Origin: Deltaproteobacteria bacterium
Lineage (GTDB): Bacteria; Desulfobacterota; Desulfobaccia; Desulfobaccales; 0-14-0-80-60-11
Assembly: GCA_016874975.1 (NCBI GenBank)
Contig: VGSQ01000018.1
Location: 1-38,659, forward strand
Reading direction: 5' to 3'
DNA: 38,659 nucleotides
In this document: one piece after another, positions 1,312-18,523 of the stretch
How the letters are laid out: each line of letters begins with the position of its first letter
How positions within the stretch are numbered: the stretch's first letter is position 1
The notes under the pieces: generated by a model
Seen by the model: only the letters and a program-made list of their open reading frames with translations
Databases searched by the model: none
What the model was told of the DNA's origin: nothing
Translations under genes and position numbers: made by a program

Positions 1312-1566
1312 TTGAGGTTCCTGACAGACTGTAAGGCCGACGCCACGGCCGACCTGGTATATCGGGTGTGCCCCATGCATCTTCTGGAACCCGCCGAGTT
1401 CCTGCGGGATTTGCATACGGGGCAGGTGCTGGAGATTTTGACCGACTATGACGGCGCCCTGGAGGACATTCCGGCCTGGTGCGCCAAACACGGTCAGGAG
1501 TTTGTGGGCCTCTGCGAGGAAAACGACGACGAGGTTTTCAAGCTCTACATCAGGAAGTTGCACTGA
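1312..1566 (+). CDS. TusA/SirA-family sulfur-carrier-like protein
   Basis: 84 residues, the usual TusA length. TusA proteins carry sulfur as a persulfide on the Cys of a CPxP motif. Here the motif reads VCPMHLLE, so the Cys is kept (Cys20) but the second Pro is His. The rest fits the fold: LxxLxTGQVLEILTDYDGALEDIPAWC, then GQEFVGL and a final FKLYIRKLH strand. The TTG start at 1312 is chosen because a strong AAGGAGG lies 8 nt upstream and the family alignment starts there. It is the first gene of the operon, 8 bp before the NifS-like gene, which suggests it relays sulfur to or from the operon's other Cys or Sec proteins. The function is inferred from family and context. Confidence 0.8.
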   Translation: MRFLTDCKADATADLVYRVCPMHLLEPAEFLRDLHTGQVLEILTDYDGALEDIPAWCAKHGQEFVGLCEENDDEVFKLYIRKLH

Positions 1567-1574
1567 GGTCCGTC

Positions 1575-2768
1575 ATGACACCCGGTTATTTTGACCACGC
1601 GGCAGCCACCCCGGTCCGGCCGGAGGTGTTGACCGCGATGCTGCCGTACTTCACCGAGCGCTTCGGCAATCCCTCCGCGGTGTATGATCTGGGGTCCGCC
1701 ATCAAAGACCTCATGGAAGTCCATCGGGCCAAGGTGGCCGGCCTGATCGGCGCCTCTCCGGAGGGCATCGTCTTCACTTCTTCCGGTGCAGAAGCCAACA
1801 ACCTGGCCATCAAAGGCGCGGCTCTGGCGCATCTCAAGAAGGGCCGCCACCTTATCGTCTCCGCCATCGAGCACCACTCGGTACTGAATGCGGCCCGTTA
1901 TCTCGAAAAGTTTCACGATTTTGAGGTCACCTTTCTGCCGGTCGACCGCCGCGGCCAGTTGGACCCGGAGCGGTTGCGGCGGGCCCTGACCCCGGCCACG
2001 GTCATCGTCTCCATCCAGCATGCCAGCAACGAAATCGGCACAGTGCAGCGCCTTGCCGAGCTGGCCGCTGTCTGCCGGGAGGCCGGGGTGTTGTTCCATA
2101 GCGACGCAGTCGCCAGCATAGGGCAGCTCCCCGTCCAGGTAAAGGAACTGGGCGTCGATCTTCTCAGCCTCGCCGGTCCGGCCCTGGGTGCGCCCAAGGG
2201 CGTCGGCGCCCTTTACTTCCGCCGGGGTCTGCGCCTGGTGCCCCAGATTCACAGCGGCATCCAGGAGAACGGCCGCAGGGGCGGCACCGAAAACGTCCCC
2301 GGCATCGTTGGCCTGGGCGTGGCCGCCGAGCTGGCCCGGCGGGAATTGCCGGAGAAAGCCGCCTATCTGAAGGCCTTGCGGGACCGCCTGGCGGCCGGGG
2401 TCAGGGAACTGATCCCCCACACCCTTTGCACCGGCCACCCGGAGGAGCGCCTGCCGGGCCACGCAAGCTTCTGCTTCGAGGGCATCGAAGGTGAGGCCCT
2501 GGTCTTCCTGTTGAACCGCCAGGGGATTTACGCCAACACGGGTTCGGCTTGCGCCAGCAAGGCCCTTAAGGTTTCCCCCACCTTGTGCGCCCTGGGGATT
2601 TCTCCGGACCTGGCTCAAGGTTCGCTGGTGTTTACCTTGAGTTGCGGCAACCGGGCCGAAGAAGTGGACCAGGTCCTGGCGGAGTTGCCCCGGGCGGTGG
2701 AGAAACTGCGCTCCTTCTCCCCGGTGTGGCGCAAGAAAACGGCGGCCTTCTCCGGAGGATCGGCATGA
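1575..2768 (+). CDS. NifS/IscS-like cysteine desulfurase homologue lacking the PLP lysine
   Basis: 397 residues, full length for a class-V aminotransferase-fold desulfurase. Recognisable parts: SSGAEANN, His100 of EHHSVL that would stack on PLP, NEIGTVQ, Asp177 of the HxDA motif, and the mobile-loop Cys326 in GSACAS. The segment that should read SxSGHKxxGPKG instead reads SLAGPALGAPKG (198-209): Ser to Ala at 200, His to Pro at 202, Lys to Ala at 203. The Gln after HSDA is Ala180. Without Lys203 no internal aldimine can form, so ordinary desulfurase activity is unlikely. A. fulgidus IscS also lacks this Lys and was reported inactive, acting instead as a Cys ligand donor to the cluster on IscU. 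The ATG at 1575 follows the TusA-like gene by 8 bp; the stop overlaps the Rrf2 start by 4 bp. Confidence 0.9.
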   Translation: MTPGYFDHAAATPVRPEVLTAMLPYFTERFGNPSAVYDLGSAIKDLMEVHRAKVAGLIGASPEGIVFTSSGAEANNLAIKGAALAHLKKGRHLIVSAIEHHSVLNAARYLEKFHDFEVTFLPVDRRGQLDPERLRRALTPATVIVSIQHASNEIGTVQRLAELAAVCREAGVLFHSDAVASIGQLPVQVKELGVDLLSLAGPALGAPKGVGALYFRRGLRLVPQIHSGIQENGRRGGTENVPGIVGLGVAAELARRELPEKAAYLKALRDRLAAGVRELIPHTLCTGHPEERLPGHASFCFEGIEGEALVFLLNRQGIYANTGSACASKALKVSPTLCALGISPDLAQGSLVFTLSCGNRAEEVDQVLAELPRAVEKLRSFSPVWRKKTAAFSGGSA

Positions 2769-3205
2769 GGCTGTCCACCCGCAGCCGGTACGGCGCCCGC
2801 CTCATGCTGGATATGGCCCAGCATTATAATCAGGGGCCCATCCAGTTGGGGGACATCGCCAAGCGCCAGGACGTTTCCGTGAAGTATCTGGAGCAGATCA
2901 TCATTCCCTTGAAGAAGGCCAAATATGTGGACAGCGTGCGCGGGCCCAGGGGCGGCCACAGCCTCGCCCGGCCTCCGGCAGAGATCTCCCTGGGGGAGAT
3001 CGTGGCTCTCCTGGAGGAGGGGACCAGCCTGGTGGAATGCGTGGACGACGCGGGGGTGTGCCGGCGCGCCGAGATGTGCCCCACCCGCGTCGTCTGGAAA
3101 GAAGTCTCCGAAGCCATCTTTGAGCGGCTCCGGTCCATCACCCTGGCCGACCTGGTAGAGAAAGCCAGGGCCATGAACCATGAGGAGTTGAGACATGTAC
3201 TCTGA
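2765..3205 (+). CDS. Rrf2-family transcriptional regulator with a three-Cys cluster motif
   Basis: 146 residues, the normal Rrf2/IscR size. An N-terminal winged helix (residues 1-65, STRSRYGARLMLDMA, then VSVKYLEQII and RGPRGGHSLARP) binds DNA. Cys92, Cys99 and Cys105 (spacing x6, x5) match the cluster-binding cysteines of IscR-type proteins, suggesting control by Fe-S status. It overlaps the NifS-like stop by 4 bp (ATGA) and the iscU start by 11 bp, so it is co-transcribed and probably autoregulates the operon. Whether it acts as an IscR-type repressor or on another target cannot be read from the sequence. Confidence 0.92.
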   Translation: MRLSTRSRYGARLMLDMAQHYNQGPIQLGDIAKRQDVSVKYLEQIIIPLKKAKYVDSVRGPRGGHSLARPPAEISLGEIVALLEEGTSLVECVDDAGVCRRAEMCPTRVVWKEVSEAIFERLRSITLADLVEKARAMNHEELRHVL

Positions 3206-3590
3206 GGTCGTGCTGGAGCATTTCAACAATCCGCACCACGCCGGGGTCATCGAAGACGCGGACGGCGTCGGCGAAGTGGGCAACCCCACCTGCGGCGACA
3301 TGATGACCTTTTACATCAAGGTCAGAGATGATGTCATCGAAGACATCAAGTTCCAGACCTTCGGCTGCGTGGCGGCCATCGCGGTTTCCAGTATGGTCAG
3401 TGACCTGGCCAAAGGCAAGAGTCTGGCCGAGGCCCGGAAGATCACCAAAAAGGCGGTGGCCGAGGCTTTGGGGGGCCTGCCTGCCAACAAGATGCACTGC
3501 TCCAACCTGGGGGCCGACGCCCTGGCCCTGGCCATTGACAATTATCAGGAAAAGCAGGCGGCGCGCCGCCCGGAACATTCCCCCCAGTGA
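3195..3590 (+). CDS. iscU: IscU/NifU-N-type Fe-S cluster scaffold
   Basis: 131 residues, the IscU length. The scaffold on which [2Fe-2S] clusters are built. The three ligand Cys are present: Cys33 with Asp35 in NPTCGD, Cys58 in TFGCVAA, and Cys102 in KMHCSNL. The usual GCGSAIAS is GCVAAIAV here, a modest deviation. There is no hscA/hscB/fdx neighbourhood and no NifU C-terminal domain. It sits directly after the Rrf2 gene and pairs with the PLP-less NifS-like protein, the same pairing as in A. fulgidus, where sulfide may supply the sulfur. Confidence 0.92.
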   Translation: MYSEVVLEHFNNPHHAGVIEDADGVGEVGNPTCGDMMTFYIKVRDDVIEDIKFQTFGCVAAIAVSSMVSDLAKGKSLAEARKITKKAVAEALGGLPANKMHCSNLGADALALAIDNYQEKQAARRPEHSPQ

Positions 3591-5130: not shown

Positions 5131-6405
5131 ATGAAGAAATTGGTCATTTTAGGACACGGCACGGGTGGCACCATTATCGCCACCAAGATGCGGGCCAGGC
5201 TGCCGGAGCGGGAGTGGGACATCACCGTCATTGACCGCGACTGGCAGCACCACTATCAGCCGGGGTGGATCTTCATCCCCTTCGGCATTTACACCAAGGA
5301 CGATTGCCTCAAACCCCGGAGCAAGTACGTCCCTGCCGGGGTCAACTTCGTCCTGGATGAGATCCTGGGGATTGACCCGGACAAGCGCCAGGTCAAGACC
5401 AGACAGGCCACCTTCGGCTATGACTGGCTGGTGGTGGCCACCGGCTGCGGCATCAACCCCGAGGAAGTGGAGGGCATGCTGGGGGAAGGCTGGGGCAAGG
5501 AAATCCACAATTTCTACACCCTGGAAGGGGCCCTGGCCCTGTATGAGAAAATGAAATATTTCCATAAGGGCCGGGTGGTGGTGAACATCGCCGAGCTGCC
5601 CTTCAAATGCCCGGTGGCCCCCCTGGAATTCTGCTTCATGTCGGACTGGTTCTTCGACGTCCGCGGCGTCCGGAAAAACATCGACATTGAGCTGGTGACA
5701 CCGCTGCCGGGGGCCTTCACCAAGCCCCAGGCCTCGGCCATGCTGGGGCAGCTGGCGGAGGAGAAAAACGTCCAGGTCACCCCCAACTTCCAGATCGCCG
5801 GGGTGGACGCGGGCCGCAGGATCATCAGCTCCTACGACGGCCGGGAGGTGAATTACGACCTGCTGGTAACCATCCCGCCCAATTTCGGGGCTCAGTGCAT
5901 CAGGGACAGCGAGATGGGCGACCCCATGGGCTACGTGGACACGGACCACCACACTCTCAAGGCCAGGAACTTCGAGCGGGTCTACATCATCGGCGACGCC
6001 ACCAACCTCCCCACCTCCAAAGCCGGGGCCGTGGCCCACTACGAGGCCGACGTGGTGGCGGACAACCTGGTCCGGGAGATCGACGGCCAGCCACCCTGGC
6101 CCAACTACGACGGCCACGCCACCTGAATTGTGGTGACCGGTTACGAGAAGGGGTCCCTTCTCGACTTCAACTACAAAGTGGAGCCGCTGCCGGGCAAGTT
6201 TCCCTTCCCGGGCCTCGGCCCGTTCGACCTCTTGGGAAACAGTTTCAGCAATTATATCGCCAAGATGATGTTCCGGTGGGTGTACTTTAATCTTATGCTC
6301 AAGGGGAGCCACCTGCCGCTGGAATCTCAGTTCGTCATGGCCGGCAAGGTGCGGGGCATTATTTCTCCCGATATCGAGATGCCCTTAAGGAGGAAGCGGA
6401 GATGA
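5131..6405 (+). CDS. SQR-like FAD oxidoreductase, probable selenoprotein (Sec332 at TGA 6124-6126)
   Basis: 424 residues if TGA 6124-6126 is read as selenocysteine. The two-dinucleotide-fold family of sulfide:quinone oxidoreductases and relatives: N-terminal GHGTGGT for FAD, VVATGCG near 102-107, Cys160 in PFKCPVAPLE, and YIIGDATNLPTSKAGAVAHY for the FAD pyrophosphate end. The TGA falls in YDGHAT-[TGA]-IVVTG, where relatives have GHANCFIETG; this C-terminal Cys acts with the Cys near 160 in sulfide oxidation. The same frame then runs 92 codons through FNYKVEPLPGKFPFPG and ends in ATGA overlap with the next gene. A GGUC-loop hairpin follows the TGA. A plain nonsense mutation is the alternative, but it would not explain the hairpin or the intact tail. 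No transmembrane helix; likely peripheral to the inner membrane. Confidence 0.88.
6144..6163 (+). promoter_or_regulatory. Bacterial SECIS element (UGA recoding hairpin)
   Basis: Perfect 8-bp stem CGAGAAGG / CCTTCTCG closed by the tetranucleotide GGTC (6152-6155). The loop begins 25 nt after the TGA, inside the 16-37 nt window accepted for bacterial SECIS elements. GGUC is the SelB-contacting loop sequence of E. coli fdhF. The hairpin lies within the coding sequence (codons for YEKGSLLD), as all bacterial SECIS elements do. Seen directly: stem, loop and spacing. Inferred: SelB binding. Confidence 0.85.
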
Positions 6406-7130
6406 ACGGCGAACAGCAGATCCTGGAACGGCTGGCCCGTATCGAGGAGAAGCTGGAGCAGTTCTCCGCCCGGACGGAGCAGCTGAAGGGAGTGGGCGAC
6501 GCGGTGGAGAGCCTCCAGGACCTTAGCCGGGACGTCTCCCTGTTGTCCTATCCGGCCGTCCGGCTCCTCACCGAAGAGCTGGGAGAGGTGGAGACGGGCT
6601 TCCAGTTGGAGGACATCTTTTTTCTCCTCAAGCGCGTGCTCCTGAACCTCCGGAACCTGGGCTGGGCCCTGGAGCAATTGGAGAACCTGGTGGATTGGTG
6701 GCGGGACCTGGAACCCATCCTGAAAATCGCCGTGCCCCACCTGATCGACAAACTGGAAGATCTGGACCAGAGGGGCATCTTCAAGGGCTACCAGGCCATG
6801 CTGCAAGGCTACGCCAAGATCGCCCAGGCCTACAGCCCGGAAGACATCGACGTTATTGCGGAGGGCATCGTCCGCATGCACGGCGTGGCCAGGAAGTTTT
6901 CCGAGCCGGCCTTCATCAATTTCATCGAGAAGCTCATGGACTTGCCGGGCCAGATGAGGCTCGCGGAAGCCAGGCCGGCGGGGCCGATCGGCCTCATGTG
7001 GCGGATGCGGAGCCCGGAGTGCCGGCAGGGGCTGGGGGTAATGCTCGAGCTCACCAAGGCTTTGGGAAAGCTGCAAAACGGCAACGGCCAGGCCGTGACC
7101 CCAGTGACAGAAGAAAGAGAAGCGCCATAA
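6402..7130 (+). CDS. DUF1641-family protein
   Basis: 242 residues, almost entirely helical. The N-terminus (1-35) is a coiled coil (ERLARIEEKLEQFSA). A DUF1641 block follows, ending in GLMWRMRSPECRQGLGVMLE and LTKALGKLQ. DUF1641 proteins occur next to SQR-like and Hdr-like genes in sulfur-metabolising bacteria and archaea; their biochemical role is not established. It starts at an ATGA overlap with the SQR-like gene, with AAGGAGG embedded in that gene's last codons, so the two are translationally coupled and probably interact. No cofactor motif is visible. Confidence 0.85.
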   Translation: MNGEQQILERLARIEEKLEQFSARTEQLKGVGDAVESLQDLSRDVSLLSYPAVRLLTEELGEVETGFQLEDIFFLLKRVLLNLRNLGWALEQLENLVDWWRDLEPILKIAVPHLIDKLEDLDQRGIFKGYQAMLQGYAKIAQAYSPEDIDVIAEGIVRMHGVARKFSEPAFINFIEKLMDLPGQMRLAEARPAGPIGLMWRMRSPECRQGLGVMLELTKALGKLQNGNGQAVTPVTEEREAP

Positions 7131-16010: not shown

Positions 16011-17282
16011 TTGACTGATACGCTGTTTCCCCCAGATATCTGGCGGTGGCTCGTCCTGTGCGGGCTGATGTGTCTCTACGTCTGCTTTTCCCTGGCGGAA
16101 ACCTCCCTGTTTGCCCTGAACCCCCTGGACCGCCTGCGTCTGAAGCAACAGCGCCCCCGGCGGGGCAAGATGGTGGAGGACCTCCTGGAGGAATCGCACC
16201 ACCTCCTCATCACCCTGGTGGTGGGAGTGGAGGTCGTCACCATCCTGGGCACCATCATGGCCACCTCCCTGGCCCTGAGCCTCTGGGGCGACCGCGGCAA
16301 ATGGGTGGCGCTGCTTGTCCTGTCGCCCTCCCTGATGCTCATCGGGGAGATCATCCCCAAATCCCTGGCCCTGACCTACCCGCAGCGCTTGGCCACCCTG
16401 GTCGCCCCCCTGGTGCGCATTTTTGTGCGCCTTTTCGCCCCCCTACGGGTGGTGCTGGTGCAGATCAGCCGCGGCCTCCTGGTGACCCTGGGCTTCCGTC
16501 CGGACCTGCAGGTGCCGGCAGTCCACCAGGAAGACTTTCTGCACATGGTGGAGGAGAGCCACCAGGTGGGGGTGATCGGCGCCCTGGAACGGGATTTTAT
16601 CCAGAATCTCCTGAACTTCGGTGATATCCGGGTCAGCCAGATTATGGTCCCCCGTCCGGACATCTTTGCCCTGCCCCTGGACCTGCCGGCGCCGCAACTC
16701 ATCCAGGAGGTGAAGCGCTCCCGCTTCACCCGGGTGCCCATCTATCGGGGCCAGCCCGGCGACATCCTGGGGATTCTCCACGCCAAAGAGCTTCTGAACC
16801 TTTGTTCCCGCACCACCTGTGACGCCGGCATCATCCAGAATCTCCTCCGGGCGCCCCTGTATGTGCCGGAAAACAAGAAAGCCTTCGACCTGCTGAGCGA
16901 ACTGCAGAACCGGCGCATCCACCTGGCTTTGGTGGTGGATGAGTACGGCAGTCTGGTGGGGCTGATCACCGTGGAGGACCTCCTGGAGGAACTGTGCGGC
17001 GAAATCCCCCAGGAATTCGCGCCGGAAGAAAAAAGCATGGAAGAAATCGCCCCCGGACGCTGGCGGCTCAAGGCGGCCATGTCGGTGGAGGACTTCAACC
17101 AGGCCTGGGAAGTCGACCTGCCGGCCCGGGAGTTCGACACCATCGGCGGCCTGGTGCTGGACCGCTTCGGGGAACTCCCCCAGGAGGGGGACGCCGTGGT
17201 CATTGACGACCTGGTTTTTAAAATCCTGAAAAAGAAAGGCACCCGGCTTCTGGAGTTGGAAGTCAGCCGGAACCGACCATGA
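16011..17282 (+). CDS. CNNM/CorC-type membrane protein (DUF21-CBS-CorC_HlyC), first copy
   Basis: 423 residues. An N-terminal DUF21/CNNM membrane domain (about 10-170, four membrane segments, AETSLFALNPLDRLRL and GEIIPKSLAL), two CBS domains (about 205-325, VPRPDIFALPLD and VDEYGSLVGLITVEDLLEE) and a C-terminal CorC_HlyC domain (345-423, FDTIGGLVLDRFGELPQEG). Family members export Mg2+ or Co2+ (MpfA, CorC) or are named hemolysin C. The start is TTG 16011 with no strong ribosome binding site, and the folded segment just upstream may affect initiation. Its stop overlaps the next, paralogous gene by 4 bp. Confidence 0.9.
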   Translation: MTDTLFPPDIWRWLVLCGLMCLYVCFSLAETSLFALNPLDRLRLKQQRPRRGKMVEDLLEESHHLLITLVVGVEVVTILGTIMATSLALSLWGDRGKWVALLVLSPSLMLIGEIIPKSLALTYPQRLATLVAPLVRIFVRLFAPLRVVLVQISRGLLVTLGFRPDLQVPAVHQEDFLHMVEESHQVGVIGALERDFIQNLLNFGDIRVSQIMVPRPDIFALPLDLPAPQLIQEVKRSRFTRVPIYRGQPGDILGILHAKELLNLCSRTTCDAGIIQNLLRAPLYVPENKKAFDLLSELQNRRIHLALVVDEYGSLVGLITVEDLLEELCGEIPQEFAPEEKSMEEIAPGRWRLKAAMSVEDFNQAWEVDLPAREFDTIGGLVLDRFGELPQEGDAVVIDDLVFKILKKKGTRLLELEVSRNRP

Positions 17283-18523
17283 TCCTGGTCCTGCTGCTCA
17301 TCTTTGTGCCGCTCCTCATCCTGGAGGGATTCTTCTCCATGTCCGAGACCTCTCTGGTGTCGGCCAACCGACGCCGTTTGCAGAGCCGGGCGGAGGAAGG
17401 GCATCGGGGGGCGCGCCTGGCCCTGAAACTCCTGGAAAAGCCGGAACGCCTGATGGCCACCTGTCTGGTGGGCTCCAACCTTTCGGAAATCTCCAACACC
17501 GTGCTGGTGACCGCCGTGCTCCTGGCCTGGCTGGGGCCCATGGGCGAGTTGGTGGCCGTGCTGCTGCTGCCGCCCCTCATTCTGCTCCTGGCCGAGATCA
17601 CCCCCAAATCCATCGGCCGCCAGCACTCCACCTGGCTGTCCCAGCGTCTGGCGCCCATAGTTTGGCTCCTCTCCTGGGTGCTGGCGCCCCTCACCGCCAT
17701 CTTCGCCGGTGTGAGCCGCCTCTTCCTGTGGCTCACCGGCGCCCGGCAGACCAGCTCCATTCCCTTCATCACCCGGGAAGATTTACATCTGGTGGTGAAA
17801 AAAGGCGGTCCGGAAATGGACCTGGAAACCGGGGAGCGCCGCATTATCAATCGCATCCTGCGCTTCAGCCTGCGCACCGTGGGGGAGGTGATGGTCCCCC
17901 TGGTCAGGGTGGCGGCCATCTCGGACACCTCGACCGTGGCCCAGGCGCTGGCGGAATTCCACAACACCCCGTACACCCGTCTGCCCGTCTACCACCGCCG
18001 GGTCGACCATCTCATCGGTGCACTCCACGGGTTCGACCTCCTGGGCGAAGAACCCTCGGACCGCCCCCTCAAGCCCTTCATCCGGCCGGTGCATTATGTC
18101 CCGGAGATCAAAAAGATCGATCAGCTCCTGCCGGAGATGCAGCGGCTGGGCATCCATCTGGCCGTGGTGGTGGATGAATTCGGCGGCGCCGTGGGCATCG
18201 TCACCATGGAGGATCTGCTGGAAGAGATCGTGGGGGAGATCGACGACGAGTTCGACCAGAAGGTCGCCCCCTGGAAGAAGTTGGGGGAGGGCCACTACCT
18301 CATCAACGGCCGCACCGAGATCACCGCCCTGAACGAGGCCCTCCATCTTGAACTCCCCCATGGCGATTATGAAACCCTGGCCGGTTTGCTCATCGCCCTC
18401 CTGGGGGACCTGCCCCGTCCGGGAGAACAGCTCCGCCTGGGGAACCTCCGTTTTGTGGTGCGGACGGCCGACCCCAGGACCGTCAAGGAGGTGGAACTCA
18501 TTGTCACTCATCCCTCCGAGTGA
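17279..18523 (+). CDS. CNNM/CorC-type membrane protein (DUF21-CBS-CorC_HlyC), second copy
   Basis: 414 residues with the same order as its upstream neighbour: DUF21 membrane domain ([27 protein letters not shown]), a CBS pair ([34 protein letters not shown]) and a CorC_HlyC domain ([19 protein letters not shown]). The 4-bp ATGA overlap suggests the two products form a heterodimer, since CNNM-fold proteins dimerise through their CBS domains. Sequence identity between copies is moderate by eye, so the duplication is old. The last 23 bp overlap the start of larC. Confidence 0.9.

Follow-up and report, generated by a model that had tools for sequence, protein, structure and literature searches.

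The question raised by this locus is whether an in-frame TGA codon in a gene for a flavin-dependent oxidoreductase is a stop or is read as selenocysteine (Sec), and which enzyme would carry a Sec at that position. The gene lies in an assembly of a Deltaproteobacteria bacterium (GCA_016874975.1), on contig VGSQ01000018.1, of which positions 1 to 38,659 were analyzed; this whole stretch of 38,659 nucleotides is called here the window, and the gene is named SQR after sulfide:quinone reductase. From its ATG at 5131 in frame +1, the gene meets TGA as codon 332 and runs on to a stop at 6403–6405; with TGA translated as Sec, a continuous 424-residue protein containing U332 results, and the stop overlaps the ATG of the next ORF at 6402 (ATGA). 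The frame, its coordinates, the TGA at codon 332, the 92 codons beyond it and the ATGA overlap, all given in the initial annotation, were reproduced from the sequence. In comparison with the related locus L018, the codons after the TGA show 29 synonymous and 12 non-synonymous differing codons; since the differences in this stretch are mainly synonymous, at third positions, the part of the gene 3' of the TGA evolves, on codon comparison, as protein. The features of the locus are collected in Table 1.

Table 1. Coordinates of the features of the SQR locus in the window, with the basis of each assignment.
Feature	Coordinates	Strand	Basis
Predicted Sec-containing type III sulfide:quinone reductase gene	5131..6405	+	424 residues with TGA as Sec; NF049943 match; many relatives have orthologues with TGA
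Codon of Cys160, which presumably pairs with Sec332	5608..5610	+	Alignments; matches human SQOR Cys201
UGA codon for predicted Sec332	6124..6126	+	Alignments; matches catalytic Cys379 of human SQOR
Bacterial SECIS-like hairpin, CGAGAAGG-GGUC-CCUUCUCG, within the coding sequence	6144..6163	+	Fold; invariance in TGA copies
DUF1641-domain protein gene	6402..7130	+	PF07849 at 8.2e-9; overlaps SQR stop (ATGA)

Relatives of the SQR protein were gathered from a genome-collection scan (20 relatives) and a class-level search, with matches in 21 of 29 genomes. In the first alignment, 48 rows from the class reach column 332, and every one of them has TGA, TGC or TGT there; these rows are partly non-independent because the two collections overlap in some genomes. 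The column is Cys in 12 of 12 more distant, phylum-level copies. Both a Cys at this column in SQR-like relatives and an alternation of Cys and Sec in related genomes had been anticipated in the initial annotation, and both were seen, every covered row holding either Cys or TGA. The motif quoted there for the relatives (GHANCFIETG) was slightly off, as they mostly read GH(A/S)TC(Y/F)(V/I)VTG. C160 is conserved in all aligned copies, and C59 and C106 in most of them. Four Cys orthologues (L020, L027, L034 and L100) share 64–78% identity with the window's protein and, unlike it, have TGC or TGT at column 332; furthermore, several genomes (e.g., G015 and G019) have, besides a TGA copy, a Cys copy that is more distant.

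At nucleotides 18–37 after the UGA, the message folds into a hairpin with an 8-bp stem and a GGUC loop. This hairpin (GAGAAGGGGTCCCTTCTC) is present in all TGA copies, invariant and at a constant distance 3' of the TGA. Over codons 338–344, pairwise synonymous diversity is 0.00 among 17 TGA copies (background 0.37), whereas among 11 Cys copies it reaches 0.37–0.68 in six of the seven codons (background 0.40), codon 340 being invariable in these 11. Because synonymous sites are frozen in the TGA copies and variable in the Cys copies, a selected SECIS-like element after the UGA is strongly supported; the evidence is conservation and not energy, for the window sequence taken by itself does not fold with exceptional energy (z -0.9 to -1.9). 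The hairpin is missing from the Cys copies L020 and L034, and it is retained with one base changed in the Cys copy L027 of Desulforhabdus sp. TSK (CGAGAAGGGGTCTCTTCTCG, L027:4991–5037).

The machinery for Sec insertion, which the initial annotation proposed to look for in the same genome, was recovered in part: selA (609 bits), selB (361 bits) and selD (379 bits) match their profiles above cut-off, and tRNA-Sec (selC) was not found in the window's draft genome by an Rfam covariance model, ARAGORN on candidate loci, similarity or pattern searches. The selD gene (L038, G000:C155) has itself a single in-frame TGA, in the motif AGUAAKV, fitting the N-terminal catalytic Sec described for SelD (PMC13188914). 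Upstream of selD on the same strand stand a short TusA-like gene and a YedE-like membrane gene, both named by eye only. Among the 31 genomes searched, tRNA-Sec was above cut-off in 27, including those with the nearest TGA copies (G008–G010). The window genome is a draft (217 contigs, 94.28% completeness), so the missing tRNA-Sec is most simply, and probably, explained by a gap in the assembly; an archaemetzincin-like gene (named by eye) that adjoins tRNA-Sec in G010 is also absent from the window's assembly, in a search without a positive control, which fits a gap.

The missing tRNA-Sec gene is what could be advanced for taking the TGA as a true stop, ending a truncated protein or pseudogene, or as a sequencing error in a TGC or TGT codon. 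Nonetheless, the same TGA recurs in many species whose genomes were assembled separately, the codons 3' of it evolve as coding sequence, the synonymous sites of the hairpin do not vary among the TGA copies, and selA, selB and selD are in the genome; this explanation is therefore highly improbable. Sequencing error or a pseudogene at the SQR TGA was rejected, the codon being common to many separate assemblies. Sec is, in all these respects, almost certainly inserted at codon 332.

With respect to the family, the protein scores 654.1 bits with the NCBIfam model NF049943 (“type III sulfide quinone reductase, selenoprotein subtype”), whose cut-off is 525. The match takes in residues 2–406, 405 of 406 positions, and crosses the TGA. 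The four Cys orthologues named above likewise exceed this cut-off, so the match alone does not demonstrate Sec. A 2026 review (PMC13188914) lists NF049943 as an NAD(P)/FAD-dependent oxidoreductase with the motif HxxU, which reads H329-A-T-U332 (GHATU) in the window's protein, and gives deep-Sep as its source; deep-Sep (2025, PMC12013277) labelled the family by COG1252, Ndh, with TGA copies also in Desulfosediminicola. The claim that no Sec-containing SQR had been described is wrong, and the novelty attached to it fails, because NF049943 and the review, which cites deep-Sep, already record the family. The Sec-SQR family was thus previously predicted, and the window's gene is a well-supported added member of it, not a new kind. 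Like the family on record, which it matches over the full length, it carries Sec in the HxxU motif and has Cys homologues; it differs in belonging to another lineage of the phylum, and the hairpin constraint and a Sec-to-Cys reversion are documented here for its branch. What is new here is the spread of the family in one bacterial class, one apparent Sec gain, one Sec-to-Cys reversion and the constant pairing with DUF1641.

Among solved structures, the nearest are chains of human SQOR (E 7.8e-50), aligned over residues 4–392. C160 and position 332 align with chain cysteines counted at 161 and 339; these are 178 residues apart, the spacing of human SQOR Cys201 and Cys379 (PDB 6oi5, 8dhk), and this alignment supports the pairing of Cys160 with residue 332 put forward in the initial annotation. 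Human SQOR differs in having Cys and not Sec, in being mitochondrial and in its distant sequence. Its active-site trisulfide, Cys379-S-S-S-Cys201, is attacked by sulfide; Cys379 bears the persulfide, which is handed to an acceptor, and the partner of FAD in the charge-transfer complex is Cys201 (PMC11039317). Since Cys160 and position 332 align with these two residues, Sec332 would replace the sulfur-accepting, sulfur-delivering residue of SQOR. An AlphaFold prediction from a 14-row alignment was poor (pLDDT 46.8) and unusable for active-site geometry.

In the proposed mechanism, UGA codon 332 would be recoded as Sec by SelB, tRNA-Sec and the in-frame SECIS hairpin just 3' of it, giving a type III sulfide:quinone reductase that depends on flavin. 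On the pattern of human SQOR, a sulfur beside FAD would bridge Sec332 and Cys160. Sulfide would attack the Cys160/Sec332 bridge, the sulfane sulfur would stay on Sec332 (Se-SH) before its transfer to an acceptor, and the electrons would travel from Cys160 to FAD and on to quinone. The insertion of Sec itself, the use of sulfide as the substrate and of quinone as the acceptor, any DUF1641 role and the advantage of selenium at position 332 are elements that we infer.

The enzyme might, on the other hand, receive Sec and be a different FAD oxidoreductase, of the persulfide/polysulfide or the NAD(P)H-dependent type, perhaps with the DUF1641 protein as electron partner. The Pfam match is only the general domain Pyr_redox_2, the deep-Sep label points to Ndh, and no assayed or characterized member of the window's SQR branch was found in the literature; yet the best solved relatives are SQORs along most of the protein, both catalytic Cys positions are kept, and the NCBIfam name is that of a type III SQR, which leaves such a function unlikely, though worth bearing in mind. 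Because no assayed member of the branch was found, Sec insertion and sulfide:quinone reductase function taken jointly are rated as probable, a step below Sec insertion itself. Thus, regarding the initial claim that Sec takes the place of the C-terminal catalytic Cys in an SQR-like enzyme, the Sec is strongly supported by the alternation, the hairpin and selA/selB/selD, and the sulfide:quinone activity is only presumed. More tentatively, Cys160 and Sec332 could form a mixed Se-S bridge with a selenopersulfide intermediate, and the enzyme, with the coupled DUF1641 protein, could handle sulfane sulfur in an undescribed anaerobic pathway, a possibility that we consider less likely than not.

In 46 of 49 loci, SQR is followed directly on its 3' side by the DUF1641 gene, and the remaining three loci break off inside SQR; the Cys orthologues L020, L027 and L034 have it downstream, like the window locus. 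Of the CCG-domain, NifU, IscS-like and Rrf2 genes upstream, none was found adjoining SQR in relatives, apart from one weak CCG match (L034). Given this constancy, set against upstream genes not found beside SQR in relatives, the DUF1641 protein is a likely partner of SQR. The literature search returned no paper with both DUF1641 and sulfide quinone. In the window, the genes for a class V aminotransferase (IscS-like), an Rrf2 regulator and a NifU-N/IscU scaffold are consecutive at 1479–3590, upstream of the CCG-domain and SQR genes.

On a 43-row maximum-likelihood tree, the Sec label requires two changes: one apparent gain, basal to a clade of 25 rows, and one apparent reversion to Cys, shared by a subclade of four rows (L047, L027, L020 and L021) that is sister to the window's own clade with branch support 96/92; this direction rests on midpoint rooting and on Cys as the ancestral state (Cys outgroups). 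The copy in Desulforhabdus sp. TSK, with TGC and a kept hairpin, is as expected for a recent reversion and probably a relic of it. The SQR family occurs in 20 of 297 genomes of the phylum; within this sample, the TGA copies are confined to the family to which the window itself belongs. The window's SQR is a clear, testable selenoprotein candidate of sulfur metabolism; the close Cys and Sec orthologues offer natural pairs for asking what selenium contributes to sulfide oxidation, and a Cys copy still carrying the SECIS-like hairpin gives a handle on how Sec is lost. Elsewhere in the window (16011–18523), two adjoining genes for GldE/PaeA/CorC-like membrane proteins have similar scores and are perhaps a tandem duplication.
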